A stretch of DNA of 10,913 bases. Origin: Candidatus Syntropharchaeum sp. Lineage in GTDB: Archaea; Halobacteriota; Syntropharchaeia; Alkanophagales; Methanospirareceae. Below are positions 1-10,913 of this stretch, piece after piece. Both the position numbers and the translations under genes were made by a program. The notes beneath the pieces were generated by a model, which saw only the letters and a program-made list of their open reading frames with translations, searched no databases and was not told the origin of the DNA. Location of the stretch: NCBI GenBank assembly GCA_016782355.1, contig JADHYP010000033.1, positions 1 to 10,913 of the forward strand. Reading direction: 5' to 3'. Position 1 is the stretch's first letter. The number at the start of each line of letters is the position of its first letter.

Positions 1-139
1 GGGTAACAGCGAAAATTTTCGCCGCCTCTCGCTTCCCCATTTGAAGCGACATTTCTGTTATTCTTAGCTTTGGCGAATAGCCCAATGCTTTAATTAATAA
101 TGATTGTCCAGTCTCGTTATACCTTACTTCTTTTGGCAT
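1..139 (-). CDS. Small winged-helix-type regulator, N-terminal part with apparent internal deletion; runs off left edge
   Basis: An open frame starts at ATG 139-137, with a GGAGG-type ribosome site about 8 nt upstream, and stays open to the window edge (46 codons). The protein begins MPKEVRYNETGQSLLIKALG and continues YSPKLRI. From memory, this resembles the N-terminus of a family of small archaeal winged-helix proteins, often seen near toxin/antitoxin genes. Right after PKLR it reads ITEMSLQMGK, which looks like the C-terminal helix of the same family; the roughly 60-residue winged-helix core expected between them is absent. The same ITEMSLQ peptide is encoded at 1799-1829. I infer an internally deleted, probably non-functional regulator that still has its promoter and ribosome site. 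The family assignment is recollection, not a search. Confidence 0.5.
   Translation of the reverse strand, partial: MPKEVRYNETGQSLLIKALGYSPKLRITEMSLQMGKREAAKIFAVT
32..62. repeat. 31-bp direct repeat, left copy flanking the MNT-HEPN operon
   Basis: Positions 32-62 match 1799-1829 at 30 of 31 bases, with a single C/A difference at 38/1805. The core TTTGAAGCGACATTTCTG is identical. Both copies are in the same orientation and encode ITEMSLQ(M/I)GK in the same minus-strand frame, so they are probably fragments of duplicated regulator genes rather than a dedicated attachment site. Confidence 0.75.
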
Positions 140-182
140 TCTCTTCCTCCTACTGTTAAGTTAATTGATTGATGTACTGAGT

Positions 183-192
183 ATTTATAAAA
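183..192 (-). promoter_or_regulatory. Archaeal TATA box for the gene at 139-1
   Basis: On the minus strand this reads TTTTATAAAT. A transcript start about 25 bp downstream would fall near 162, leaving a leader of roughly 23 nt that contains the GGAGG site before ATG 139. Spacing and sequence both fit an archaeal promoter. No purine-rich BRE is obvious upstream. Confidence 0.5.
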
Positions 193-278
193 GAGGTGCA
201 ACGGCGTCGTTAAATCCCGCAAGAGGTGAAGAGATTGTGGAGTTCATAAAAAGGGTGGAAAGTGACTGAGTGCCTGCG

Positions 279-298
279 GTTACTTTCGGTGCAGTAAC
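279..298. other. Short hairpin downstream of the MNT-HEPN operon
   Basis: GTTACT (279-284) and AGTAAC (293-298) are perfect inverted repeats with an 8-nt loop, starting 5 bp beyond the stop codon of the last HEPN gene. No T-run follows on the minus strand, so a terminator role is uncertain; it could instead protect the 3' end or be chance. Confidence 0.3.
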
Positions 299-303
299 AA
301 TGT

Positions 304-696
304 TCATGGTTTGATTTTCTCCTCTGCCCATTTGCGAACCTTTCTTACGAGTTCGCGAGTCGCCACCCTGTCAAAAGGTAACTCGGCTTCCGATGGTAGT
401 ATATCGTAGCGGAACTCAACAGCATAAGGGGAAAGCACATCCAGTTCCTTAATATAATCTGGAACTTCTATTTCATTATCGGTGAGCAAATTCAGCAGTT
501 TCTCAAGATCGTGGATTTTTCGGTATGCAACTCTAAATTCTGACAATACTGCCTTTAAGAGTTTTTCAACTGCCTGCTGGGCATGAAAACCTATTATTTC
601 ATCGCTGATACGTTCGGAATCTAATATTTCATCCAATAGAGCTTCATCTTCAGACGCTTTTTCCAATAGTAACAAAGCCTGCTCATGATGTTTCAT
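304..696 (-). CDS. HEPN-domain protein (toxin-type partner of MNT), pair 1
   Basis: A 130-residue, mostly helical protein of the HEPN type (COG2250-like). The helix 2 signature AQQAVEKLLKAVL is at residues 39-51, and the HEPN RNase-type motif is present as R55-x6-H62 (FRVAYRKIH). A DVLSPYAVEFRYD stretch corresponds to the LDKYYLTTRYPD region of the second HEPN protein in this operon. HEPN proteins of this class are usually ribonuclease toxins neutralised by the adjacent MNT nucleotidyltransferase. The residue two after the motif histidine is Leu, not the Tyr that is AMPylated in RX4HXY-type toxins, so that control route may not apply here. The gene overlaps its MNT partner by 14 bp and is the last gene of the operon. 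Confidence 0.85.
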   Translation of the reverse strand: MKHHEQALLLLEKASEDEALLDEILDSERISDEIIGFHAQQAVEKLLKAVLSEFRVAYRKIHDLEKLLNLLTDNEIEVPDYIKELDVLSPYAVEFRYDILPSEAELPFDRVATRELVRKVRKWAEEKIKP

Positions 697-1000
697 ACAA
701 TATCCTCCCTTCCAAGGCAGCTTCGTAGATTACCGTTCCAGGTGTATCTGCCCAATCATTGAATACCTGTTCGCTTACTACAATGATGTCAACAGGTATC
801 CGCAAAGGGCTCAAAATTCGTCTAAGCCTTACCATCTCCATCTTGCGTGCTTTTAGTTCTTTTTCTACAATAAGAAAATCAAGGTCACTATCTTCATCAG
901 CCTTACCCGTAGCATAAGAGCCAAAGAGGATGATCTTGACTGGATTGGCAGCTCTCTTAAGCAGTTGAACTGCTTCCCGGATGGTTGCTTCTGGAATCAT
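683..1000 (-). CDS. MNT-type minimal nucleotidyltransferase (antitoxin-type), pair 1
   Basis: A 105-residue minimal nucleotidyltransferase of the DNA polymerase beta superfamily. The signature GSX10DXD is complete: G27-S28, then D39 and D41 in SDLDF. A third acidic residue, D71, lies in the PVDIIVV strand, so the metal-binding triad looks intact. In studied HEPN-MNT systems the MNT protein is the antitoxin and can transfer AMP to the HEPN partner; that role is inferred here. Its ATG is two bases after the stop of the upstream HEPN gene, and its own end overlaps the downstream HEPN start by 14 bp, indicating translational coupling. Confidence 0.88.
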   Translation of the reverse strand: MIPEATIREAVQLLKRAANPVKIILFGSYATGKADEDSDLDFLIVEKELKARKMEMVRLRRILSPLRIPVDIIVVSEQVFNDWADTPGTVIYEAALEGRILYETS

Positions 1001-1002
1001 AT

Positions 1003-1422
1003 TTATGCTATATTATCACCGCTTAATTTAACCCTTACAAGATTAACAATTTCCTCCACCATCTTTATAGCATCAGACCCCTCTTTTTCGGTAAAAGATT
1101 CATAAGGAACCGCAGGAGGGGCTATTGCATCTGGGTATCGGGTAGTCAAGTAATATTTATCAAGAATAACCCCGAACTCCTTAAATTTAGAAAACTCCGC
1201 TTCAAAAAGGCTACATTTTTCTGCAAGTTTTTGTATTGCGTGCTCCCAGATATATCGTTCGCCTTTAAAGATGAGATACGCTTTTAATGCCTTTTGAGCA
1301 GCCTGCTCGCACATAAAGCAAGTATAAGAATATATTTCCCGCTCAAAATTGCTCTTAGCGGACTCTAAGTCAAAATCAGCCTGCTCAAACCACCGTTCCG
1401 ATTCCTCTTTACTCCTTCTCAT
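1003..1422 (-). CDS. HEPN-domain protein (toxin-type partner of MNT), pair 2
   Basis: A 139-residue HEPN protein with the full set of family landmarks: the AQADFDLESAK-like first helix (WFEQADFDLESAK, residues 11-23), CEQAAQKALKAYL at 38-50, the catalytic-type motif R56-x4-H61 (RYIWEH), and the late LDKYYLTTRYPDA segment followed by PYESFTEKE. This is the classic COG2250 arrangement. It is expected to be an RNase-type toxin or RNA-processing subunit. It is clearly paralogous to the HEPN protein at 304-696 but keeps the conserved features better. The position two after H61 is Ile, so the tyrosine of the RX4HXY motif is missing. It overlaps its MNT partner by 14 bp. Confidence 0.9.
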   Translation of the reverse strand: MRRSKEESERWFEQADFDLESAKSNFEREIYSYTCFMCEQAAQKALKAYLIFKGERYIWEHAIQKLAEKCSLFEAEFSKFKEFGVILDKYYLTTRYPDAIAPPAVPYESFTEKEGSDAIKMVEEIVNLVRVKLSGDNIA

Positions 1423-1723
1423 ATAAAATCCGCCCCTCTTTCAACACTCGCTCAATAAATGGATTTTCCCATTCAATCATCCTCTCAATTTCCTCAGGTG
1501 TGTATACGAACACATCAACTTTTCCTAGGTCTAAGTCTATAAGTCTTGCTACTTCTATTAATCTTTCAATAAATCTCTTCTCGGTTTTTTTAATTACAAC
1601 AAAATCCAGATCGCTGTATTCATCCATCTCATCTCGAACATAAGAGCCAAAAATGATTATCTTTTCAGGCTCATACTGCATAAGACATTTAACTATCTTA
1701 TCTACCTTATCCATTCTCACCAT
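1409..1723 (-). CDS. MNT-type minimal nucleotidyltransferase (antitoxin-type), pair 2
   Basis: A 104-residue minimal nucleotidyltransferase with GSX10DXD complete (G26-S27, D38 and D40 in SDLDF) and a third acidic residue D70 in GKVDVFVY. It is the first gene of the four-gene MNT-HEPN-MNT-HEPN operon and overlaps its HEPN partner by 14 bp, the same overlap as in pair 1, which suggests the operon arose by module duplication or sequential capture of related modules. Start choice: ATG 1723 would fit a leaderless transcript from the TATA-like box at 1745-1754. An in-frame ATG at 1714 is preceded by GGTGAGA, so the true protein may be three residues shorter. Confidence 0.88.
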   Translation of the reverse strand: MVRMDKVDKIVKCLMQYEPEKIIIFGSYVRDEMDEYSDLDFVVIKKTEKRFIERLIEVARLIDLDLGKVDVFVYTPEEIERMIEWENPFIERVLKEGRILYEKE

Positions 1724-1790
1724 CTTCTATATATGTCTCCTCGCCTATTATACTTTTCTTGTTAGCCACCTTGCCGAAAGCTTCTTTCAT
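1707..1790 (-). CDS. Possible 27-residue ORF ahead of the MNT gene
   Basis: ATG 1790-1788 overlaps the stop of the winged-helix remnant (ATGA) and has a GGTGGA ribosome-like site just upstream. The frame encodes MKEAFGKVANKKSIIGEETY and seven further residues, ending out of frame inside the start of the MNT gene. I recognise no family. It may be a leader peptide, a remnant of a lost partner gene, or a chance frame. Confidence 0.2.
   Translation of the reverse strand: MKEAFGKVANKKSIIGEETYIEDGENG
1745..1754 (-). promoter_or_regulatory. Candidate TATA box for the MNT-HEPN operon
   Basis: On the minus strand this reads AGTATAATAG. A start about 25 bp downstream would fall at 1723-1726, at or beside the MNT start codon, consistent with a leaderless transcript. 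The sequence match is moderate only. Confidence 0.3.
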
Positions 1791-1870
1791 TCTTCCACCT
1801 TCCCAATTTGAAGCGACATTTCTGTTATTATTTCATCAATTCCTGCTCGATAGTCGTGTTCTTTGGAAAC
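1787..1870 (-). pseudogene. C-terminal remnant of a small winged-helix regulator
   Basis: The minus-strand frame between stops reads ...AGIDEIITEMSLQIGKVEE and stop, 27 codons with no start codon before the internal ATG. The IDEIITEMSLQI segment resembles the C-terminal helix of the winged-helix family whose N-terminus is encoded at 139-1, and ITEMSLQ is identical in both. The 5' part of the gene is missing: upstream DNA in another frame encodes the restriction/transposase chimera at 1828-2040. The remnant stop overlaps ATG 1790. Family assignment is inference. Confidence 0.4.
1799..1829. repeat. 31-bp direct repeat, right copy flanking the MNT-HEPN operon
   Basis: Partner of the repeat at 32-62 (30/31 identity, same orientation). 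Similarity stops abruptly after 1829, where the neighbouring chimeric frame ends with its TAA at 1830-1828, so this edge may mark a rearrangement junction. Confidence 0.75.
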
Positions 1871-2040
1871 TCACCGACGATTAACTTGTTCCGGTGAAGG
1901 AGACAGAACCGATGAATCAAGTTCTCACCGAAGAACTCCTCAAAGACCCCTGGATAACGCATTGAAGGTTCGATTCCACGGTCTTCGCAAATCCGCAAGA
2001 AGGTAATCCGGTCTAACAACTTCTGCACTGCATAGTTCAA
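1828..2040 (-). pseudogene. Decayed chimera: type IIG restriction-methylase fragment joined to a transposase-like fragment
   Basis: The N-terminal 25 residues (NYAVQKLLDRITFLRICEDR) match the helical signature preceding the catalytic domain of large type IIG/Eco57I-like restriction-methyltransferases. This similarity continues upstream of the nominal TTG start (FDKVNEL precedes it in frame) to the 3' end of nth, so there is no genuine start codon. From about residue 40 the frame changes character: HRFCLLHRNKLI contains a C-x2-H pattern typical of MULE-like DDE transposases, followed by KNTTIEQELMK and a stop at the repeat junction. Neither part is near full length; no methylase NPPY or complete DDE motif is present. 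I infer two gene scraps joined in frame by rearrangement. The restriction part is the firmer call. Confidence 0.5.
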
Positions 2041-2050
2041 CTCGTTTACC

Positions 2051-2698
2051 TTATCGAAACCGCGTTACGCCAACCCTTTTGCAGTGCTCAGTAACCGGGC
2101 AGATGCTGCACTTTGGACTGATAGGCGTGCATATAGTTTTGCCATGCATGACGAGCAGGTCGTTAAAGATAATCCAGTACCGCTTTGGAAGCGTTTTTCG
2201 TAATGCAAACTCTGTCTGATACGGATTTTTAGTCGCTACGAGTCCCATGCGATTGGATATACGGTGGACGTGAGTATCAACGGCGACACCGGGTTTATTA
2301 TAGCCCATCGTGATAACGATATTTGCGGTTTTTCTACCAACACCCTTTAGATTCAAGAGTTCATCTATCTTGTCCGGGACCTTAGAATCATAGCGCTCAA
2401 TCAGGACACGACAGAGTTCAAGTATTTGCGCCGCCTTCCTCCGGTAGAATCCGACAGGATAGATTGCAGCTTCTATCTCCTCTCTTTTGAGGTTTAACAT
2501 CTCTTCAGGCGTTTTTGCCAGTGCAAATAACCGTTCGGAAGCTCTGGCAGTCACTTCATCCCTTGTTCTAAGACTCAAAAGGCATGAAATCAGTGTAAGA
2601 AAAGGGTCTTTTCTCGTTGAAACATCCGTCAATGCCGACGTTTCCTCTTGATACCGCGTTTTAAGAATCTGCACCACCTTCTCAATATCATTCGGCAA
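2051..2698 (-). CDS. nth: Endonuclease III (DNA glycosylase/AP lyase)
   Basis: A 215-residue enzyme, close to the usual 210-215. It removes oxidised pyrimidines from DNA and cleaves the abasic site by beta-elimination. Visible landmarks are the helix-hairpin-helix LNLKGVGRKTANI with catalytic Lys K123, the catalytic Asp D141 in VDTHVHR, and the [4Fe-4S] ligands C190-x6-C197-x2-C200-x5-C206 near the C-terminus. The start is TTG 2698-2696: an in-frame TGA lies three codons upstream, and GGTGAG sits at good ribosome-site spacing. The start overlaps the end of nfo by 11 bp, so the two base-excision-repair genes are translationally coupled. The 3' end abuts the restriction-methylase remnant. Confidence 0.96.
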   Translation of the reverse strand: MPNDIEKVVQILKTRYQEETSALTDVSTRKDPFLTLISCLLSLRTRDEVTARASERLFALAKTPEEMLNLKREEIEAAIYPVGFYRRKAAQILELCRVLIERYDSKVPDKIDELLNLKGVGRKTANIVITMGYNKPGVAVDTHVHRISNRMGLVATKNPYQTEFALRKTLPKRYWIIFNDLLVMHGKTICTPISPKCSICPVTEHCKRVGVTRFR

Positions 2699-3530
2699 GT
2701 TCTCTCACCTTCCGGATATTTTCAATATCGCCTCTCCGATCATCAACCGGAGTCTCGAGGATTATCGGCAACTCCCTGATACGCTCATCTTTGAGCATCA
2801 CTCGAAAACCTTCTTCTCCTATATACCCAAGCCCAATATGCTCATGCCTGTCCAGTCGCGAGTTCCGACCTGCCTTTGCATCATTTAGATGGATGAGCTT
2901 CAGACGTTCAAGTCCAATGACCGCATCAAAATGCTGCATCGTAGCTTTCAGGCTTTTTTCAGTCCGTAATTCGTATCCGGCAACAAAAGCGTGGCAGGTG
3001 TCAAAGCAGATTCCAATTCGTTCCTGCTGCTCAACACGGTCCATGATGTGTCGTATATCCTCAAAGGTTCCTCCCATACTGTTCTTCGTCCCGGCGGTAT
3101 TCTCTAAAAGCAGCATCACGCGGTTATCAACTTCATTGAATGCCGTGTTTATCGCATTCACTATCCGCCGAAGCCCCTCTGCTTTTCCATATCCTCGATG
3201 ACTCCCAAGGTGCGTGACAATGTAAGGAATCCGTAAAGAGCCGCTGCGCTTCAATTCCTCGACAAGAGCTGCCACAGACTGATGGTAAACCTTATCTGCC
3301 GGTGCAGCAAGATTTGGAAGGTATGGCATGTGGTCCACAGGAGGAAATATCCCGGAATGCTCAACCTTCTCAGTGAATCGTGTTATCACAATCTCTGTAA
3401 GCTCCTTGAGTTTCCATCCGCGTGGGTTTCTCGAGAATATCTGGAAGGTATCACAACCCTTCTCTATTGCTCGTCCCACTGCCTTATCTATCGACCCTGC
3501 GATTGAGACGTGAACGCCAACTCGAACCAT
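2688..3530 (-). CDS. nfo: Endonuclease IV (AP endonuclease)
   Basis: A zinc-dependent AP endonuclease that incises 5' of abasic sites and trims blocked 3' ends. Taking ATG 3530 as start gives 280 residues and the family N-terminus (VRVGVHVSIAGS). The nine expected trinuclear zinc ligands are all present: H67, H107, E143, D177, H180, H214, D227, H229 and E259, with spacing matching the E. coli enzyme at a constant offset of two. The frame is open further to a GTG at 3560, but a TATA-like box at 3565-3574 would put the transcript start near 3545, inside that extension, so ATG 3530 is preferred. It is first in an operon with nth. Confidence 0.96.
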   Translation of the reverse strand: MVRVGVHVSIAGSIDKAVGRAIEKGCDTFQIFSRNPRGWKLKELTEIVITRFTEKVEHSGIFPPVDHMPYLPNLAAPADKVYHQSVAALVEELKRSGSLRIPYIVTHLGSHRGYGKAEGLRRIVNAINTAFNEVDNRVMLLLENTAGTKNSMGGTFEDIRHIMDRVEQQERIGICFDTCHAFVAGYELRTEKSLKATMQHFDAVIGLERLKLIHLNDAKAGRNSRLDRHEHIGLGYIGEEGFRVMLKDERIRELPIILETPVDDRRGDIENIRKVRELAE

Positions 3531-3564
3531 TACCTTTTCCAACACTCCCCTTATCACCACTCAA

Positions 3565-3574
3565 TTAAAATATA
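3565..3574 (-). promoter_or_regulatory. TATA box for nfo-nth
   Basis: On the minus strand this reads TATATTTTAA. A transcript start about 25 bp downstream would be near 3545, leaving roughly 15 nt before ATG 3530. It lies just past the stop of the upstream truncated regulator (3584), so nfo-nth probably has its own promoter. Confidence 0.45.
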
Positions 3575-3583
3575 GTGTGGGTG

Positions 3584-4051
3584 CTATACTTCAAAGGCAA
3601 AGGAGCAGAACCTATCTCCTTTTGCCATACAGCTCTTTAACTCAACGCGTGTATTGAGCAAACCACCGATGAAGTTCATATCAAACTCGCATACGAGCTC
3701 ACCGAACTCCATGGCAATCTCATGGATGAGGCAATTGTATTCTTTTATAATTATTTTACCATCCTCTCGCTTCATCTCTGCAAATGTTCCCAGTTCGTTC
3801 AACAATTCCACCACGGACTCCACATCGCCAGCCCCGTTCAGTCTTTCTCTGTAATAAGATGCCTGCGCCGCGCCCAATCGCGCCATCATCTCCCTCACCC
3901 TCTCTGACCCTTCCCTCTCGATTATATCTCGGATAATCCATTTGAAGAAGTCAGAATATGCTTTTGGAAAGAATTTCTCCGCTTTCTCGGTGAGAGAATA
4001 AAAAATCTTCGGTCTCCCCATTTTTTCTTTAATCGCAATCCTCTTTATCAA
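3584..4051 (-). CDS. SufR/ArsR-like metal- or Fe-S-sensing regulator, missing its DNA-binding N-terminus
   Basis: The protein starts LIKRIAIKEKMGRPKIFYSL (residue 1 from TTG 4051), which is the wing and linker region of a winged-helix regulator of the COG2345/SufR type; GRPKIFYSLTEKAEKFFP is the classic joint to the C-terminal half. The C-terminal half contains four cysteines, C107, C121, C141 and C149, in the NC..H ... LVCEF ... KSCMAKGDRFC pattern that in SufR-like proteins can bind an Fe-S cluster or metal. The recognition helices expected upstream are absent: an in-frame TAG lies about ten codons before the TTG, and no other minus-strand frame there resembles a winged helix. The deletion or junction coincides with the start of the divergent gene at 4069. 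It is probably a disrupted regulator; a small sensor-only protein is possible. Confidence 0.65.
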   Translation of the reverse strand: MIKRIAIKEKMGRPKIFYSLTEKAEKFFPKAYSDFFKWIIRDIIEREGSERVREMMARLGAAQASYYRERLNGAGDVESVVELLNELGTFAEMKREDGKIIIKEYNCLIHEIAMEFGELVCEFDMNFIGGLLNTRVELKSCMAKGDRFCSFAFEV

Positions 4052-4068
4052 GCTATCCCGCTCCAGAA

Positions 4069-5709
4069 GTGATGGCTATGGCGGGAGAAGAGATACATAT
4101 AAGAGATTTTCCACCTTTCATCAGGTTCGAACTTGAGGAAAGATTCCGAAGGGAAATCTTCGCAAAGTTCTTGAAGAGCGTGAGCGAGGTTGAAGTAGGC
4201 ATTCTTCCGGAAGAGTTCTGGAACTCGGTGGAAGAAGAATTTGAAATATCGAGATACGAGTTGAACTTTGGCAAAGTACGTGGAAAGATATTAAAAACAC
4301 TCGAAAAAAGTCCATTAAGAGCGAGGGAGATACTGGAAAGAAATCCTGACGTCCCCGCGAATTCCATTTACCACGCTATAATGTGGTTAAAGGGTCAAAA
4401 ACACATAAAAAAGAAAGGAGAGCGGTGGGCGCGCAAAGAAGATTGTTTTGACCGTGTTAGAGTTTCCGACCTTGCAAGAATAATCGATATGAGACACGAG
4501 GGTGAAAGAAGAAAGAATGCCATATCTATAAAGGAATTGGAGATGGCAACTTTTCTGTGGCCGAGTTATGAGCGTGCTTGTGATCGTGCGGGGATACGTT
4601 TTCAAACCACGTCTTATGGGCGATGGTATCAAAATCAGTTCGCACTCGCGAGAGCGGTAAAAGAATGGAGGAGAGGAAATACTAATATTCCTCAATGGAC
4701 TCTGATAGCGATAGCCGATTTTACCAACGTGGATATTGAGGAGAGAGAAGTAATATCAAGCTATTGTCTTCCTCCGGGGGTTGAAATATCCCCCCATTAT
4801 AAAGGGCGGTATAAACTCCCTATTGAAGTCTCTTCTGACCTTGACGTTATTGCGCTTCAAATACTCATGAATGCGGATGGATTGGTACATCCCGCTAAAC
4901 ATAAAAAGGCGATATTTAAAAGACTACACCACACTTTCGGCTCATTTCAAAGCGACCGGATACCCCTAACCATAAGAAAGATAATTGAGAATTATTATCA
5001 AATCCCGGGTTGTAGAAGAAACGGCATTAGAATACCCGAAAAAATGAAGGAGAGATGGGAACAACACCCGTTTCACGAGAAGACGCTCTCTAAAATCATG
5101 GTTCTGGAGACGTTGTTTGAACTGGATAAATCAAGAAGAACTTATGAGCTAATCTCGCGCTCGATAGACTTTCTTGACGATGTAGCGAGCATATTAAAGG
5201 ATTTAGGAATTGGCACCATTAAGATAACAAAAAGGAAAGACAGACCCCATTATCGGTCTTATTTGCCTAAAAAGGTGAAAGAAAATCTTGAAGGCTTAAA
5301 AGAAAAAATAGAAAAAATCAAGATTGAAAAAGGGATTGATTTTCTCGTTGAAAAGGAGGGAATAGAACTGATCAGGAACGTTAAAAATTATTGGGGCGAG
5401 GAAGGGGTTAATATACTCTCCAACCTGACTCAGGATAAAGGAGTCAGAGACCTTGACCTTGCCCGAGCTTGTGGTGTGACACCAAAAGAGGTGAGGAAAA
5501 TACTCTATGAACTCATAGATAGAGCGATTATCACCTGCGTAAGAGAAGAGACCACTGCACTCGTGGAATATTATTACTATTTGAGTCCTGATGGTATCGA
5601 GAAATTTTTAGCAGGGGAAAAGAAGGTGAAAGAAGAAGAAGATTTCAAATACCCATTTCCGGAAGAATTCAATTTTTATCAGCGAAGAAGATTGTTTGTA
5701 TTTGTTTAG
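4069..5709 (+). CDS. Winged-helix / degenerate LAGLIDADG / TFE-alpha-like winged-helix fusion protein
   Basis: A 546-residue protein with three readable parts. Residues 68-122 (KILKTLEKSPLRAREIL ... IYHAIMWLKGQKHI) look like a winged helix. Residues 205-405 look like a LAGLIDADG homing-endonuclease fold: an IPQWTLIAIADFT linker helix, first motif DVIALQILMNADG (257-271, acidic D270), and a second motif around 343-353 (IMVLETLFELD, acidic D353) followed by ISRSIDFLDDVASILKDLGI, the usual post-motif beta-alpha pattern. Residues 437-515 (EEGVNILSNLTQDKGVRDLD ... VRKILYELIDRAI ... YYYYL) resemble the extended winged helix of archaeal TFE-alpha, without the zinc ribbon. The motifs are weak, so nuclease activity is doubtful; a DNA-binding regulator, similar in concept to bacterial WhiA, is more likely. 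The start is GTG 4069 or ATG 4072/4081, none with a good ribosome site. Confidence 0.7.
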   Translation: MMAMAGEEIHIRDFPPFIRFELEERFRREIFAKFLKSVSEVEVGILPEEFWNSVEEEFEISRYELNFGKVRGKILKTLEKSPLRAREILERNPDVPANSIYHAIMWLKGQKHIKKKGERWARKEDCFDRVRVSDLARIIDMRHEGERRKNAISIKELEMATFLWPSYERACDRAGIRFQTTSYGRWYQNQFALARAVKEWRRGNTNIPQWTLIAIADFTNVDIEEREVISSYCLPPGVEISPHYKGRYKLPIEVSSDLDVIALQILMNADGLVHPAKHKKAIFKRLHHTFGSFQSDRIPLTIRKIIENYYQIPGCRRNGIRIPEKMKERWEQHPFHEKTLSKIMVLETLFELDKSRRTYELISRSIDFLDDVASILKDLGIGTIKITKRKDRPHYRSYLPKKVKENLEGLKEKIEKIKIEKGIDFLVEKEGIELIRNVKNYWGEEGVNILSNLTQDKGVRDLDLARACGVTPKEVRKILYELIDRAIITCVREETTALVEYYYYLSPDGIEKFLAGEKKVKEEEDFKYPFPEEFNFYQRRRLFVFV

Positions 5710-5716
5710 CTCCTTA

Positions 5717-5880
5717 TATAACCACAAGATTACACATCGTGGGCTCTGCCCACGTCCCCGCAAACCCTGAAAGGGTTTATTTCACGAGAAACCTTTCTTT
5801 AAAAAAGAAAGCTTTACCAAAGATAAAACTTTTTTCTAAAAAGTTTTAGTGTTAATCTCGTGAAATCTCGTGGTTTTTTA
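5717..5880. repeat. Structured intergenic element with nested inverted repeats, copy 1
   Basis: Outer arms AACCACAAGATT (5720-5731) and AATCTCGTGGTT (5864-5875) are inverted with one mismatch. An inner 11-bp perfect pair, ATTTCACGAGA (5779-5789) with 5856-5866, encloses two perfect hairpins: 5793-5811 (8-bp stem) and 5824-5848 (11-bp stem, 3-nt loop). Two more hairpins lie in the left half: CGTGGGC-TCT-GCCCACG (5738-5754) and AAACCC-TGAAA-GGGTTT (5762-5778). A T-run ends the element (5874-5879). It begins 8 bp after the stop of the LAGLIDADG-like gene and shares its left half with 9687-9781. It may be a MITE/REP-like element or a structured RNA, and could also end transcription of the upstream gene. 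Confidence 0.75.
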
Positions 5881-5920
5881 TCTCTATATGTTTCTGACAG
5901 GTGTTATTTCTACTTAAAGT

Positions 5921-5930
5921 CTTTTATAGG
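5921..5930 (+). promoter_or_regulatory. Candidate TATA box for thioferritin-superoxide reductase
   Basis: CTTTTATAGG, preceded by a purine-rich TTAAAG stretch. A start about 25 bp downstream would be near 5950, leaving a short leader carrying GGTG ahead of ATG 5967. An alternative A/T-rich box is at 5936-5949, which would imply a leaderless transcript. Confidence 0.4.
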
Positions 5931-5966
5931 ATGTTGAAATAAAATATTAACGGTGCTGATAAGAAA

Positions 5967-6458
5967 ATGGGAACAAAAGGAAGAGAAATTGTGCAGGTGG
6001 ATGTAAAAACGTTGATAGAGCTGTTGAGGAACGCTTATGCAGATGAGTGGCTGGCATACTACCAGTATTGGGTATCTGCACAAATAGTAAAGGGAAGAAG
6101 GAGGAACGAAGCGGTTTCAGAACTCACGGAACATGCGGGAGATGAATTAAGGCATGCAGAACTGCTTTCTGAGCGGATAATGCAGTTAGGAGGAGCACCC
6201 ATAACAAATATAACGGAATTGAACGAGCGCGCAAACTGTAAATATGCAGACCCTGCGAATCCCGACTCGGTAGAGATATTAAAACAGGTGATAGATGGTG
6301 AGAGATGCGCCATTGACGTTTACAACAAGCTATTGGATATGTTAAGGCAGAAAGACCCGGTAACCTACCACGTTATTTTAGAAATTATCGAGGATGAAAT
6401 AGAGCACGAGGATGATTTTGAGACACTACTGGAAGATATACAAAGCTGTGGTGAATAA
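5967..6458 (+). CDS. Dps-like thioferritin (DPSL), ferritin-like di-iron protein
   Basis: A 163-residue four-helix ferritin-like protein. The N-terminus MGTKGREIVQVDV and the AYADEWLAYYQYW helix are characteristic of archaeal DPSL proteins, which form Dps-like cages that oxidise Fe(II) using peroxide and store the iron. Di-iron ligands are visible: E27, the E60-x2-H63 pair in DELRHAE, E112 in GERCAID, and E144-x2-H147. The two cysteines that define thioferritins, C91 (ANCKY) and C114 (ERCAI), are present. Length is slightly below the usual 180 or so. Its stop overlaps the superoxide reductase start (TAATG), implying coupled translation of an oxidative-stress pair: superoxide reductase makes peroxide, which DPSL can consume. 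Confidence 0.9.
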   Translation: MGTKGREIVQVDVKTLIELLRNAYADEWLAYYQYWVSAQIVKGRRRNEAVSELTEHAGDELRHAELLSERIMQLGGAPITNITELNERANCKYADPANPDSVEILKQVIDGERCAIDVYNKLLDMLRQKDPVTYHVILEIIEDEIEHEDDFETLLEDIQSCGE

Positions 6459-6856
6459 TGGCTGATAGATTAGGGGGGCGTATTCAGTATGCAGATTGGA
6501 AGAAGGAGAAGCACGTGCCAGCAATCGAGTGCCCTTCTGAAGTGAAGGCAGGAGAGTTCTTTGTGGTGAAAGTCACGCTTGGTAAGGGGATAGCACATCC
6601 TAATACAACCGAACATCATATCCGATGGATAAACGTCTTCTTTCATCCGGAAGGAGAGAAGTTCAGCTATCACGTGGGCAATTTTGAGTTCTCTGCGCAT
6701 GGCGAATCTACCGAAGGTCCAAACAAGGGGCCGGTCTATACGCACCACGAAGTTGCGTTTTCTATGAGAATCAACAAGCCGGGAACTATTCATGCTTTAG
6801 CGTTATGCAACATTCACGGGTTATGGGAAACAGCAAAAGAGATAAAACTGCCGTAA
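6458..6856 (+). CDS. Superoxide reductase (neelaredoxin type, 1Fe)
   Basis: A 132-residue superoxide reductase that reduces superoxide to peroxide without releasing oxygen. The catalytic iron ligands (His4-Cys1) are identifiable: H19 in EKHVP, H47 in AHPNT, H53 in TEHHI, and C117 and H120 in CNIHGLW. E17 and K18, directly before H19, form the conserved EK pair used in catalysis. There is no N-terminal desulforedoxin domain, so this is the single-iron neelaredoxin form, not 2Fe desulfoferrodoxin. Electrons usually come from rubredoxin, which is not in this window. The ATG overlaps the thioferritin stop by one base. Confidence 0.95.
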   Translation: MADRLGGRIQYADWKKEKHVPAIECPSEVKAGEFFVVKVTLGKGIAHPNTTEHHIRWINVFFHPEGEKFSYHVGNFEFSAHGESTEGPNKGPVYTHHEVAFSMRINKPGTIHALALCNIHGLWETAKEIKLP

Positions 6857-6858
6857 TA

Positions 6859-6957
6859 ATGCTTTTGATTGGCGTCCCGGCGTACTCGATACAAGGACCC
6901 TCGAATACAGAGGCGAGTTCATGGGCATCGAAGGCATTGCGTAAAAACCTATCATAA
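6859..6957 (+). CDS. Possible 32-residue ORF after superoxide reductase
   Basis: ATG 6859 lies 2 bp after the superoxide reductase stop, and the frame runs MLLIGVPAYSIQGPSNTEAS and 12 further residues to TAA 6955-6957. The tight spacing would allow re-initiation. I recognise no family. It may be a small protein, the degraded end of a lost gene, or chance. Confidence 0.25.
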   Translation: MLLIGVPAYSIQGPSNTEASSWASKALRKNLS

Positions 6958-6965
6958 TTTATATG
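6955..6965 (+). promoter_or_regulatory. Candidate TATA box for the NIL-ferredoxin gene
   Basis: TAATTTATATG centred near 6961. A start about 25 bp downstream would be near 6987, only about 8 nt before ATG 6995, which suits the lack of a clear ribosome site there. Confidence 0.4.
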
Positions 6966-6994
6966 CATGTGGTGTCAAATATAGTACGGACAAA

Positions 6995-7384
6995 ATGAAG
7001 TTGTTAGTGAGGAGATACACCTCAGATTTACATGAAACACCGTATATGGCTGAAGTAATCCTCGAAACAGGAGCGAAGATAAATATAGATAGGGCGAATG
7101 TGGACGCAGTGCGGGCCGATCTCATCATTGACGTTCCGAGTGATAAACTGGAGCAGGTAGCAGAGCATTTTAGGCAGAAAGGACTTGAGGTACGGCGATT
7201 GACGAAGCTAATCGCATGGGATGAAGAAAGATGCATTCACTGCGGTGCTTGTATCTCTGTTTGCCCTGCTCATGTTTTCACGTTTGACCAGGCATGGACT
7301 ATACATCTTGAGGAGGGGAAGTGTATTCGGTGTGACGTATGTATAAAAGCGTGTCCCCTCAACGCTTTGGCGTCCGTGGATTGA
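6995..7384 (+). CDS. NIL-domain ferredoxin, 2[4Fe-4S]
   Basis: A 129-residue protein. Residues 1-68 form a NIL domain, the ACT-like fold first noted in the methionine importer MetN (VRRYTSDLHETPYMAEVIL ... INIDRANVD ... DVPSDKLEQ). Residues 78-125 are a bacterial-type ferredoxin with two CxxCxxCxxxCP motifs, C80-C83-C86-C90 and C110-C113-C116-C120. In Methanosarcina a protein of this type (MA1822 family) works with a COG1900 protein in homocysteine biosynthesis; no COG1900 gene is visible here, so a sulfur or methionine role is inference. The frame is open upstream to 6869, but that extension is basic, unlike the family, and precedes a TATA-like box, so ATG 6995 is chosen. Confidence 0.9.
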   Translation: MKLLVRRYTSDLHETPYMAEVILETGAKINIDRANVDAVRADLIIDVPSDKLEQVAEHFRQKGLEVRRLTKLIAWDEERCIHCGACISVCPAHVFTFDQAWTIHLEEGKCIRCDVCIKACPLNALASVD

Positions 7385-7406
7385 TAAAATCGTATGAGGG
7401 ATTGAA

Positions 7407-8555
7407 ATGAAGTGGTCTTACCAGATTGGCAGTATCCGGGGGATACCGATAAAGCTGCACCTGACGTTCCTGATAATATTGTTGGCTTTTATCTGGATAT
7501 TCGCAGTTAACGAGTTTAGAATTAAAACACTTGGCATAATTCTCGGTTTCGGAGGCATGAACATTTCGACGTGGTTAAAATACCTGTGGGGAGTCATTGC
7601 TTCGGTTCTTTTTTTCTCAACCCTGCTCTTTCACGAGCTCAGTCACTCCTTCGTTGCACAGAGTTATGGCGTGCATATAAGGAGCATAACCCTGTTCGTC
7701 ATCGGTGGCGTGGCTCAGATGGAGGAGATTCCCAAAGAGCCACGAATGGAGGCAAAGATTTCGGCTGCTGGTCCTGCTCTCAGTTTGAGCATAGGCGCCC
7801 TTAGCTATGCCATTTACTACGTCTTTGGTCCGGTAAGCCCTGCTGAAATTGAGGCGACGTTCAAGAATGCCGCGCTCATAGTGGTAGGTATAATTGCATT
7901 TTACAACATAGTCATTGGTCTCTTCAATCTCATTCCCGCGTTCCCCATGGATGGAGGAAGGATATTGCGGGCATTGTTTGCCACGCGTATGCCCTATGTA
8001 GATGCAACCAGAAAGGCGGTTGTAGTGGGTAAGAGCTTCGCATTTGCTATGGGTCTTTTTGGGTTATTCGTATTGAGTCCTATTCTAATAGCCATAGCAT
8101 TATTCATCTACTTTGGTGCTTCCGAGGAGGAGAAGGCAACGGTTATTTCGGTCACCTTAGAGGGCGTGAAGGTCAGGGACGTTATGACCAGCGTTCCGGA
8201 CATAATCTACGTGCCCCCCGACTGGACGCTCGAAGAGTTAATAGAGGTGATGTTCAAGACCAGACACATGGGCTATCCGGTGCAGGAAAGCCAGACTTCT
8301 CCGGTGCTTGGAGTAGTAACCTTCGCGGACGTCCAGAGGATACCTGCCTTGGAGCGAGCCATTACAAGGGTCAAGGACGTCATGAAGAGCGAGATAATCT
8401 CTATCGGACCGGATGCAGATGCCTTTGATGCTCTTAAGCTCATGTCCACCAGTAATTTGGGTCGCTTGATAGTCATGGATGGTGGGCAGATGGTGGGTAT
8501 CGTCTCCAGGACCGACCTCGTGAGAGCTATACAGTTCAGAGGTGCATACAAATGA
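7407..8555 (+). CDS. Site-2 protease family (M50) membrane metalloprotease with C-terminal CBS pair
   Basis: A 382-residue integral membrane protease. The zinc motif HExxH is H76-E-L-S-H80, and the third ligand lies in NLIPAFPMDGGR (D182). Hydrophobic segments at roughly 17-34, 58-76, 115-140, 155-178 and 208-238 fit the M50 core. Two CBS domains follow (about 256-315 and 322-376; KVRDVMTSVP and RVKDVMKSEI open them), a layout common in archaea and probably used to sense adenine nucleotides. The substrate is unknown; intramembrane cleavage of an anti-sigma-like or membrane-tethered factor is the family role. ATG 7407 has GAGGG 6 nt upstream, and the gene starts 22 bp after the ferredoxin stop, so they may be co-transcribed. 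Confidence 0.93.
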   Translation: MKWSYQIGSIRGIPIKLHLTFLIILLAFIWIFAVNEFRIKTLGIILGFGGMNISTWLKYLWGVIASVLFFSTLLFHELSHSFVAQSYGVHIRSITLFVIGGVAQMEEIPKEPRMEAKISAAGPALSLSIGALSYAIYYVFGPVSPAEIEATFKNAALIVVGIIAFYNIVIGLFNLIPAFPMDGGRILRALFATRMPYVDATRKAVVVGKSFAFAMGLFGLFVLSPILIAIALFIYFGASEEEKATVISVTLEGVKVRDVMTSVPDIIYVPPDWTLEELIEVMFKTRHMGYPVQESQTSPVLGVVTFADVQRIPALERAITRVKDVMKSEIISIGPDADAFDALKLMSTSNLGRLIVMDGGQMVGIVSRTDLVRAIQFRGAYK

Positions 8556-8567
8556 GGTATTTGTACT

Positions 8568-8600
8568 TGTTAACCGCTGAGCCCGCAGAGAACGCGGAGA
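8568..8600 (+). repeat. Short degenerate tandem CGCNGAG-type repeat
   Basis: Three related units in a row, AACCGCTGAG, CCCGCAGAG and AACGCGGAG, followed by AGCCAGG. This resembles the CGCAGAG-type intergenic repeats scattered through many microbial genomes. It sits between the protease stop and the promoter of the next gene. No copy of comparable length is elsewhere in the window. Confidence 0.4.
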
Positions 8601-8613
8601 GCCAGGAAAATTA

Positions 8614-8622
8614 TTTTATATA
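8614..8622 (+). promoter_or_regulatory. TATA box for the gene at 8670
   Basis: TTTTATATA. A start about 25 bp downstream would be near 8645, leaving a leader of roughly 25 nt with a strong GGGGGGT ribosome site (8659-8665) before ATG 8670. Confidence 0.5.
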
Positions 8623-8669
8623 GTCCGAAAGTCAATATACTATACAGCATTGAAAGTTGGGGGGTAAAA

Positions 8670-8960
8670 ATGATGGAACGGGATCGGATTATAGGTAAAG
8701 TAATCGGTCCTAATTCATTGCGTGCCAGTGGGAGAATATTTCAGTGTTGGACCAACGCAATGTCGGCTGCGGTGGCGCCTCAGCCGCTTGATCTGGCAGG
8801 ATACGTGGGGCAGGTCGTAGAGGTAAGCGGACGCCTTAATGACGATCTCTGGGAGGCGCGTTTCGTAGGGGTGATACACGGAGGCTACCAGGAAGTTAAT
8901 ACTACCAAAGGCTCTATTATTAGTTGTTCCACGGGTGCGAGCATGGGATGGGGAGTGTAG
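8670..8960 (+). CDS. Small protein of unknown function with an OB-like segment
   Basis: A 96-residue protein of no family I recognise. The middle part, LAGYVGQVVEVSGRLNDDLW then EARFVGVIHGG (about residues 42-72), has the alternating pattern of OB-fold strands (V.V.G.......A....I). The N-terminal IIGKVIG and the last 20 residues, rich in Ser, Gly and Cys (SIISCSTGASMGWGV), are less typical. A strong ribosome site (GGGGGGT) precedes ATG 8670; ATG 8673 is an alternative. A TATA box at 8614-8622 supports expression. It lies 41 bp ahead of the UPF0280 gene and may share a transcript with it. Confidence 0.6.
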   Translation: MMERDRIIGKVIGPNSLRASGRIFQCWTNAMSAAVAPQPLDLAGYVGQVVEVSGRLNDDLWEARFVGVIHGGYQEVNTTKGSIISCSTGASMGWGV

Positions 8961-8979
8961 TGGCGTGGGTTATGCCACT
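8959..8979 (+). other. Small hairpin between 8670 gene and UPF0280 gene
   Basis: AGTGGC (8959-8964) and GCCACT (8974-8979) form a perfect 6-bp stem with a 9-nt loop, overlapping the stop codon of the 8670 gene and followed by CTTTT. It might attenuate read-through into the UPF0280 gene or be chance. Confidence 0.3.
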
Positions 8980-9001
8980 GAATCTTTTGGAATAAAAATG
9001 T

Positions 9002-9691
9002 ATGAAAGAGAGTTTCAGGCTAAAAGAGACTTTCGTATGGATAACCGCGGACGAGAAGAGATATATAGAGATTGCAAAAGAGGAGATAAAACAGCGTAGG
9101 AAAGAATTGGAAAGATTCGTGCGTTGGCATCCCTATTTTCTCGTAACGCTCGAGAGTTACCGGATAGGAGAAAGGGATAAGATACCAGAGATAGTGAGAA
9201 GAATGATAGAGGCTACGGTAAAATTTGGCATGGGACCGATGTCAGCAGTTGCAGGCACTTTAGCTGAGTTTGCAGTAGAGGCGATGCGAGACGCCCGGGC
9301 TACTTATGCAATGGTGGATAATGGCGGCGACGTTGCATTGATAAGTGATAGGGACGTGCTTGTTGGCATATATGCAGGAGAAAGCCCCTTCTCAAACAAG
9401 ATTGCTCTCCGGATAAAACCTTCCTCCTCCCTATTAGGTATATGCACGTCTTCCGGGGCTGTTGGGCATTCCATAAGTTTTGGGAACGCAGATGCTGCTA
9501 CTGTGATAAGCAATAGCGCATCTTTATCAGATGCCGCAGCTACTGCGCTCTGTAATTCCGTAACTGATGCTCATTCTATCCCGAAAGCTTTTCACTCGAT
9601 TAAACACGTGGAGGGCATTGAAGGTGCGCTTATAATATACAAGGACATGCTCGCAACATGGGGAAAAATTCCGGAAATCGTCCGTTTATAA
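9002..9691 (+). CDS. UPF0280 family protein (ApbE-like fold)
   Basis: A 229-residue protein, close to the family's usual 230-250. Diagnostic segments are GMGPMSAVAGTLAEFAVEAM (76-95), MVDNGGDVAL, and the late GICTSSGAVGHSISFGNADA with ASLSDAAATALCN. These correspond to the FMN/metal-binding regions of the ApbE flavin-transferase superfamily, to which UPF0280 (COG2122) is related; the biochemical role of UPF0280 is not established. It is common in methanogens and Archaeoglobus. ATG 9002 has only a weak GGA upstream; ATG 8998 is in another frame. The stop codon TAA (9689-9691) lies inside the start of the second structured repeat. Confidence 0.85.
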   Translation: MKESFRLKETFVWITADEKRYIEIAKEEIKQRRKELERFVRWHPYFLVTLESYRIGERDKIPEIVRRMIEATVKFGMGPMSAVAGTLAEFAVEAMRDARATYAMVDNGGDVALISDRDVLVGIYAGESPFSNKIALRIKPSSSLLGICTSSGAVGHSISFGNADAATVISNSASLSDAAATALCNSVTDAHSIPKAFHSIKHVEGIEGALIIYKDMLATWGKIPEIVRL

Positions 9692-9781
9692 CCACAAGGT
9701 TACATAGATTTTCACATAAACTTTCTTTAGAAAATCATTCATGGGCTCCGCCTACGTCCCCGCAAGTCCCGAAGGGGTTTA
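9687..9781. repeat. Structured intergenic element, diverged copy 2
   Basis: TATAACCACAAGRTTACA (9687-9704) matches 5717-5734 with one difference, and 9740-9781 matches 5738-5779 at 35 of 42 positions with no gap. The linking part differs: GATTTTC ... GAAAATC form their own inverted pair around TTTCT-TT-AGAAA. The AT-rich right half of copy 1 is absent. The second hairpin keeps its pairing: A-T to G-T, C-G to T-G, and a loop-closing T-A changed to C-G. The copy overlaps the UPF0280 stop codon, so, like copy 1, it sits at the 3' end of a gene. Confidence 0.7.
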
Positions 9782-9830
9782 GTTTGATCATCGTTAAATT
9801 AAAAAGATTATTCAGTTTTTGATGAGCTAC

Positions 9831-10913
9831 CTAACCCCCAATTATTTCCTCATACCCTTCCCGGATTTCTTCCCAGTATTCTTTCGCTGCTTGTTCCCGA
9901 TTTTCGTTAAACTTATTAATCCAAAGGTCTAATCCTTCATTTCCTTCAGGCATCTTCTTCTTTATCTCTGCAAGATACCTGTGGATAACATTTTTAGTCT
10001 TCTTTGTCTCCCAGAAGACGGGATACTGGTTTGCTTTACGGTCATATTCGATAATCTTCCGTAGAAGCGCTCTACAATGTTCGTAAAGGTTGAGGTCAAC
10101 ACCGCGTCCTCGACGCAGGAGCGTCTCAACGGTTCTCTCGGACCAACCGCGGTGAAACCTGCATATTCCCATTTCCTCTGAATACATCTCTCTTATTGCG
10201 CGTTCCGCACAACTTTTCCCAAGCTCTCCTGGTGGCAGAGAATTTATACAATAATCAGTGAGGTATTTCCCCTGGATAGGTACAGGTGCGAATACGCCTG
10301 GCACCCAATATTGTGTGGGCGAAATGCAACCGTTTTCTCCGTATGAAATGTATAGTGTGCTATCAACAAACGTATTGCCCAAACTCCTTACCCGGTCTGC
10401 AAATAGCTTGTCCAGTTCTTTAGCAGCAACCCTGACACCGTGGGCTAAGATAGCTCCGATTCCCTCCTTGCGGTAGGCAACGAGTTCGGCAAGTTTTATT
10501 AACGCTTTCGCATTCGCTTGCGAGAATTCAATCCTGTAATTTCGCGGGTCAAATTCAACGTCATCCTCAAGCCCAAGTTCCTCTTTTCTGAGCAGTCCTT
10601 TATGGATACATTCCAGAATCCATGAACTCACGTTACCAAACTCGATGGCATCAAAACCCATCACTTCTACTTCTTTCACCGCCTTCTCGGCAGCTCTTTG
10701 ATCGAATATACCAGAGTTAGGACCCAAAGCCTCGTAAGGTTCGTAGTCCTTCTTGTGCTCATGGTAGATTTTTTTGCAGGTTAGAGGGCATGGCTCCCCA
10801 CAGGTGGCAAACGTTCTTGGTTCTACTATCTCTTCATTAAATTGTTTGAGATAATGGTTTTTTACGAGCGCATACAATGATTTTCTCTCGCTCTCGCTGA
10901 GATTGACGGATTC
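9831..10913 (-). CDS. Tungsten-type aldehyde:ferredoxin oxidoreductase family protein, C-terminal part; N-terminus off window
   Basis: The minus-strand frame is open to the right edge, so the 360 residues here are the C-terminal portion of a roughly 600-residue AOR-family enzyme; the TTG at 10877 is not the real start. AOR enzymes oxidise aldehydes or related substrates with tungsten-bispyranopterin and pass electrons to ferredoxin. [4Fe-4S] cysteines appear as C38, C42 and C46 (TCGEPCPLTC), with the fourth expected in EEMGICRFHRGW. Other family marks are YEALGPNSGIFD, GFDAIEFGN and IGAILAHGVRVAAKEL. The first cluster spacing is Cx3Cx3C rather than the Cx2Cx3C of Pyrococcus AOR, pointing to a different subfamily whose substrate I cannot name. 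Confidence 0.88.
   Translation of the reverse strand, partial: ESVNLSESERKSLYALVKNHYLKQFNEEIVEPRTFATCGEPCPLTCKKIYHEHKKDYEPYEALGPNSGIFDQRAAEKAVKEVEVMGFDAIEFGNVSSWILECIHKGLLRKEELGLEDDVEFDPRNYRIEFSQANAKALIKLAELVAYRKEGIGAILAHGVRVAAKELDKLFADRVRSLGNTFVDSTLYISYGENGCISPTQYWVPGVFAPVPIQGKYLTDYCINSLPPGELGKSCAERAIREMYSEEMGICRFHRGWSERTVETLLRRGRGVDLNLYEHCRALLRKIIEYDRKANQYPVFWETKKTKNVIHRYLAEIKKKMPEGNEGLDLWINKFNENREQAAKEYWEEIREGYEEIIGG

Follow-up and report, generated by a model that had tools for sequence, protein, structure and literature searches.

A 10,913-nucleotide contig assigned to Candidatus Syntropharchaeum sp. (JADHYP010000033.1, positions 1 to 10,913 of the forward strand; referred to here in its entirety as the window) encodes what is probably, with a probability of roughly 0.6, a domesticated LAGLIDADG protein of ANME-1 archaea that regulates transcription at specific sites and docks on the clamp of RNA polymerase through a TFE-like domain. 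The gene occupies positions 4069 to 5709 of the plus strand, begins with GTG, and remains open for 546 codons. Its 546-residue product comprises, in order, a winged helix, a helix-turn-helix (HTH)-like segment, a degenerate LAGLIDADG fold, and a TFE-alpha-like winged helix. The domain make-up, conservation, linkage, and purifying selection of this gene were established computationally. Pfam, profile, and fold tests confirmed the original prediction, made by eye, of an N-terminal winged helix, two LAGLIDADG segments, and a TFE-like C terminus. The gene has a single match in its own genome (61% complete). In an open-access literature search, no description of a winged helix/LAGLIDADG/TFE-like fusion protein was found among the part of the matches listed.

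Domain make-up of the fusion protein

To characterize the domains, we scanned 45 homologues, counting a match at E ≤ 1, and tallied residues over 68 copies. The C-terminal domain (residues 428 to 518; positions 5350 to 5622, plus strand) has the extended winged helix typical of TFE-alpha, as judged from Pfam and fold matches. Pfam TFIIE_alpha (PF02002) matched residues 438 to 514 of the window protein at E = 7.9e-9, above the curated cut-off, and all 45 homologues scanned. The polymerase-contact residues R51, K/R52, Y55, R69, and Y78 were kept in 66 to 67 of the 67 copies compared (one of the 68 was too short), and an acid at position 59 was kept in 59. TFE equivalog models scored the window protein far below their cut-offs (29.2 of 180 bits and 25.1 of 149.5). 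The zinc ribbon of TFE is missing, as had been proposed, since CxxC occurs in none of the 68 C-terminal parts; the canonical TFE of the same genome, unlike the fusion protein, has zinc-ribbon-type cysteines. The tail beyond the domain (positions 5623 to 5706, plus strand) carries the near-invariant motifs YPFP and YQRR. Two genomes from a single genus (L033:2912-3472, G004:C7; L044:9708-10259, G006:C45) carry a canonical-length TFE-alpha gene about 5 to 6 kb from the locus, and both have a further TFE at another site.

The central part (residues 251 to 421; positions 4819 to 5331, plus strand) has the two-unit alpha-beta-beta-alpha-beta-beta-alpha fold of the LAGLIDADG superfamily in an AlphaFold2 (AF2) model of that part folded alone, since the whole-protein model left the center unresolved. 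PDB fold matches were the TliVMA intein (7qsu), a further intein (2cw7), and I-DmoI (1b24), and an hhalign control was consistent with the assignment, although hhalign's own probabilities were low (4 to 21%). The intein profile comprised 26 of 30 loci; the four omitted were the member of the present family, one locus nearly identical to another, and two more. Pfam LAGLIDADG_3 matched residues 354 to 413 of the window protein only weakly (E = 0.094; 13.4 bits against a curated cut-off of 22.5). It matched 20 of 45 homologues, with a best E of 3.9e-4, and two relatives approached the cut-off (22.0 bits, or 22.5 with neighbors, and 21.6). The degenerate LAGLIDADG region proposed earlier is weak from the single sequence and is supported at the level of the family, where the LAGLIDADG_3 matches, profile test, and fold test agree. 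Three further comparisons were negative within their scope: no LAGLIDADG entry was among the 50 matches listed by either of two programs that compared the whole-protein model with structure databases; a profile of residues 178 to 424 hit nothing but fragments of the same family (13 proteins at E ≤ 10), in a shared-word search that may miss remote relatives; and when a plain hidden Markov model of the center was run against 30 LAGLIDADG_3 loci, the sole locus to exceed the threshold was the one belonging to this family.

The two motif helices span residues 256 to 271 (positions 4834 to 4881, plus strand) and 335 to 350 (positions 5071 to 5118, plus strand). The acids D270 (codon at 4876-4878) and D353 (codon at 5125-5127) lie at the ends of these helices, as anticipated, and both are kept in the window's own copy, but neither is invariant. 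Of the 68 copies, position 270 is D in 39, E in 18, N in 5, S in 3, and another residue in 3, and position 353 is D in 47, E in 9, N in 7, G in 4, and Y in 1. Both are acidic together in 47 of the 68 copies, and one or both acids are lost in 21. The family as a whole therefore departs from active LAGLIDADG endonucleases, in which an acid ends both motif helices. The second unit carries a conserved basic beta-hairpin (residues 386 to 400, KRKDRPHYRSYLP; positions 5224 to 5268, plus strand), modeled as strands, in which K388, R389, D391, P393, H394, R396, Y398, L399, and P400 are invariant across 45 sequences.

An N-terminal winged helix at about residues 66 to 122 (positions 4264 to 4434, plus strand; model predicted local distance difference test [pLDDT] of 86 to 90) had also been foreseen and was borne out by Pfam HVO_A0261_N, which matched 28 of 45 homologues (best E = 1.2e-5); the match to the window's own protein was weak (residues 70 to 119, E = 0.054). 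Residues 178 to 240 (positions 4600 to 4788, plus strand), which precede the LAGLIDADG fold, are strongly conserved (SYGRWYQN..ALARAVKEW). This segment is tentatively HTH-like; HTH_3 matched the window protein at only E = 0.092.

Distribution, linkage, and selection

To determine how widely the gene occurs, we searched 5.8 billion proteins and found 67 homologues of 54 to 95% identity, 63 of which cover at least 95% of the query. A profile search returned 68 and no wider family; both searches scored only the candidates with the most words in common. Named records were Methanophagales/ANME-1, Halobacteriota, Methanospirareceae, Methanomicrobia, and uncultured archaea, and two outlying names ("Bathyarchaeia" and "Desulfobacteria") are taken to be mislabeled. 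A pattern-based scan of 84,980 GTDB species gave 15 loci, 14 in metagenome-assembled genomes named Methanophagales, Methanomicrobia, Methanomicrobiales, or "archaeon" and one named Methanolliviera. On the Methanolliviera-named contig (L054), the gene is 93 to 94% identical to ANME-1 copies and the neighbors are ANME-1-like; this contig is likely mis-binned. At E ≤ 1e-8, matches came from 16 of 246 genomes belonging to the phylum. Thirteen of these are in the window's own family; the others were G057, a remnant from a different family of the class, G090, apparently the Methanolliviera contig as judged from contig number and position, and G066, matched over the TFE part only. Within the class, 22 of 58 genomes matched, four of them in the TFE part only (G010, G012, G013, and G033), leaving 18. 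Ten stretches of viral contigs fit the pattern and none was confirmed as a relative; the idea that the gene is mobile-element cargo was accordingly dropped.

A divergently oriented SufR/ArsR-like regulator adjoins the gene in all 16 loci with that side on the contig. In the window, it lies at positions 3584 to 4051 on the minus strand (homology 3587 to 4072), with about the first 39 residues missing. It scored 41.6 bits against the SufR model, below the cut-off of 178.8; a full-length copy matched the ArsR-type HTH_5, and two copies inspected have four cysteines in common in the C-terminal half. Across the 58 class genomes, the regulator occurs at E < 1e-40 in 16 of the 18 genomes holding the gene and in 3 of the 40 others, with a fragment in a fourth; this tally excludes the weaker matches of G019, a fragment, and of G051 and G054. 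In the two holders without it, a contig end truncates the gene. G020 to G022 carry the regulator, and flanking sequence of at most some 1.5 kb showed no trace of the gene.

The spacer between the two genes measures 92 to 107 bases in 14 loci, which were aligned; the window, having lost its spacer, was not part of this set. Read by eye, the alignment contains two TATA-like elements back to back; no conserved operator was isolated from these 14 loci. In seven pairs with 15 to 39% divergence at synonymous sites, the spacers are 82 to 92% identical; in four more distant pairs, identity is only 57 to 80%.

The ratio of nonsynonymous to synonymous substitution rates (dN/dS) was 0.26 to 0.43 in the 14 closest pairs. 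Distances between copies track those of the divergent neighbor (r = 0.956, 12 loci) and of the canonical TFE (r = 0.797, 8 genomes); these sets comprise loci and genomes with both genes readable, the 12 loci include the Methanolliviera-named contig, and G003 is represented by its second fragment only. G017 and G018, of the same genus, speak against a clean vertical history, since the gene differs between them by 0.48 and TFE by 0.30. Internal deletions or remnants were seen at L042, L044, L045, L046, and L047, in five genomes; the G005 sequence compared started 238 bases ahead of the gene, which offsets its codon numbering. A split form with separate N- and C-terminal reading frames (G006 and G031) was rejected: in both genomes an internal deletion has shifted the frame, and the two deletions differ in their ends, where bases overlap by 7 and 4, respectively.

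Proposed mechanism and competing explanations

For the regulator reading, we infer DNA binding, loss of cutting, polymerase docking, a direction of regulation, and a target. The N-terminal winged helix and the basic hairpin of the LAGLIDADG fold would bind promoter DNA without cutting, and the C-terminal winged helix would dock on the tip of the polymerase clamp. At chosen promoters, the protein would then either hold polymerase in place or block the access of TFE or Spt4/5 to the clamp, giving activation by tethering or repression by exclusion; the likeliest target would be the divergent promoter in common with the SufR-like neighbor. Tethering or exclusion is favored because several clamp contacts are kept while the zinc ribbon, which anchors TFE to the stalk, and the bubble-stacking tryptophan, W75, are lost; for the same reason, direct promoter opening by the fusion protein is unlikely. 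A fuller version is tentative, at somewhat under even odds: archaea would have built a WhiA-like regulator of their own on a LAGLIDADG fold of intein type and linked it to the basal machinery by a clamp-binding domain taken over from TFE, and this gene-specific factor would act by occupying the clamp in competition with TFE or Spt4/5.

Several observations weigh against the regulator reading. No Foldseek match of the central model reaches E = 0.001 (best, 0.015); that model has a middling pLDDT of 69, with most of residues 175 to 210, 225 to 235, and 243 to 251 below 50; and, compared by profile, unit 1 on its own fell short of significance (local P = 0.053, global P = 0.82). In the TFE-like domain, the contacts K66, R67, W75, and R81 are lost, F65 is represented by Y in only 24 of 67 copies, and the wing is two residues shorter than that of TFE. 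The 47 copies that keep both acids may, for that reason, still cut DNA. The distribution of the gene is patchy, at 18 of 58 class genomes, and 5 of those 18 have a broken copy (G003, possibly by an assembly fault, G005, G006, G031, and G057). In the window itself, about 215 bases are deleted within 3584 to 4072 relative to orthologous loci, so that the regulator, from about its codon 40 on, directly abuts the start codon of the gene. Both promoters have been lost with the whole spacer, and this copy may therefore be failing; the deletion reflects either ongoing decay of the gene or an error of assembly. Given the dN/dS values and distance tracking on one side and the broken copies and deleted promoters on the other, the gene is a selected but dispensable host gene.

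The alternative that survives best, though improbable, is a DNA-binding regulator whose TFE-like helix is a mere second DNA-binding or dimerization domain that makes no contact with RNA polymerase. Winged helices are widely reused, the contacts K66, R67, W75, and R81 are lost, and F65 is mostly lost as well. However, R51, Y55, and Y78, which face the clamp, and R69, which faces the lobe, show no or almost no variation, whereas the bubble-side W75 is lost, the pattern expected under selection for polymerase contact.

Somewhat less probable again is an active or dying homing endonuclease that acquired winged helices and spreads, or once spread, by cutting, with no host function. Its patchiness, the broken copies, and the paired acids in most copies would fit, as would the many LAGLIDADG_3 domains of ANME-1 genomes, which occur class-wide, for the most part within long reading frames resembling those of inteins, with as many as 12 matches in a single genome (G023). 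Against this stand the constant divergent neighbor, the tracking of both neighbor and TFE distances, the copies that have lost acids, the lack of a confirmed viral relative, and a first unit modeled without its opening beta-hairpin (pLDDT of about 65 there).

A basal-factor variant, standing in for TFE at many promoters in the manner of RPC62/C82, which are made of TFE-like winged helices, is very improbable: in a Foldseek comparison of the whole model, the first four places went to RPC62/C82 (best E = 2e-5) and TFE ranked behind them (E = 8.9e-4), but these RPC62/C82 matches superpose at about 30 Å, so that single domains match rather than the whole protein, PF02002 matches all 58 class genomes (56 above cut-off), the window's own genome has a canonical TFE, and most class genomes lack the gene.

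Relation to known systems

To our knowledge, WhiA (DUF199), a bacterial sporulation regulator, is the one well-known homing endonuclease fold turned transcription factor. The proposed archaeal parallel to it with a TFE-like module is supported, and the two appear to be separately built counterparts. The fusion protein would be like WhiA in kind but is archaeal and longer, with the winged helix first and the TFE-like domain last; its central fold is structurally nearer archaeal inteins, and no WhiA-specific model was among the six Pfam matches of the window protein up to E = 10. It differs from archaeal intein and intron endonucleases (7qsu, 2cw7, and I-DmoI 1b24) in its degenerate motifs and acid losses, and no Pfam intein model matched the window protein. 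With TFE-alpha/TFIIE-alpha it has the extended winged helix and several polymerase contacts in common, yet it is not a TFE: the ribbon and W75 are lost, the wing is shorter, and the domain is joined to two DNA-binding-type modules. Elsewhere in the window (positions 304 to 1723, minus strand), two adjacent pairs of HEPN and MntA-like nucleotidyltransferase genes resemble type VII toxin-antitoxin systems.

ANME-1 archaea oxidize much of the methane rising through the sea floor and have no pure culture. If the regulator reading is correct, it would provide (i) a second case of an endonuclease fold becoming a regulator, in archaea and from other pieces, implying that this route is repeatable; and (ii) a regulator carrying a general-factor domain, which would make gene-specific action by clamp holding testable.
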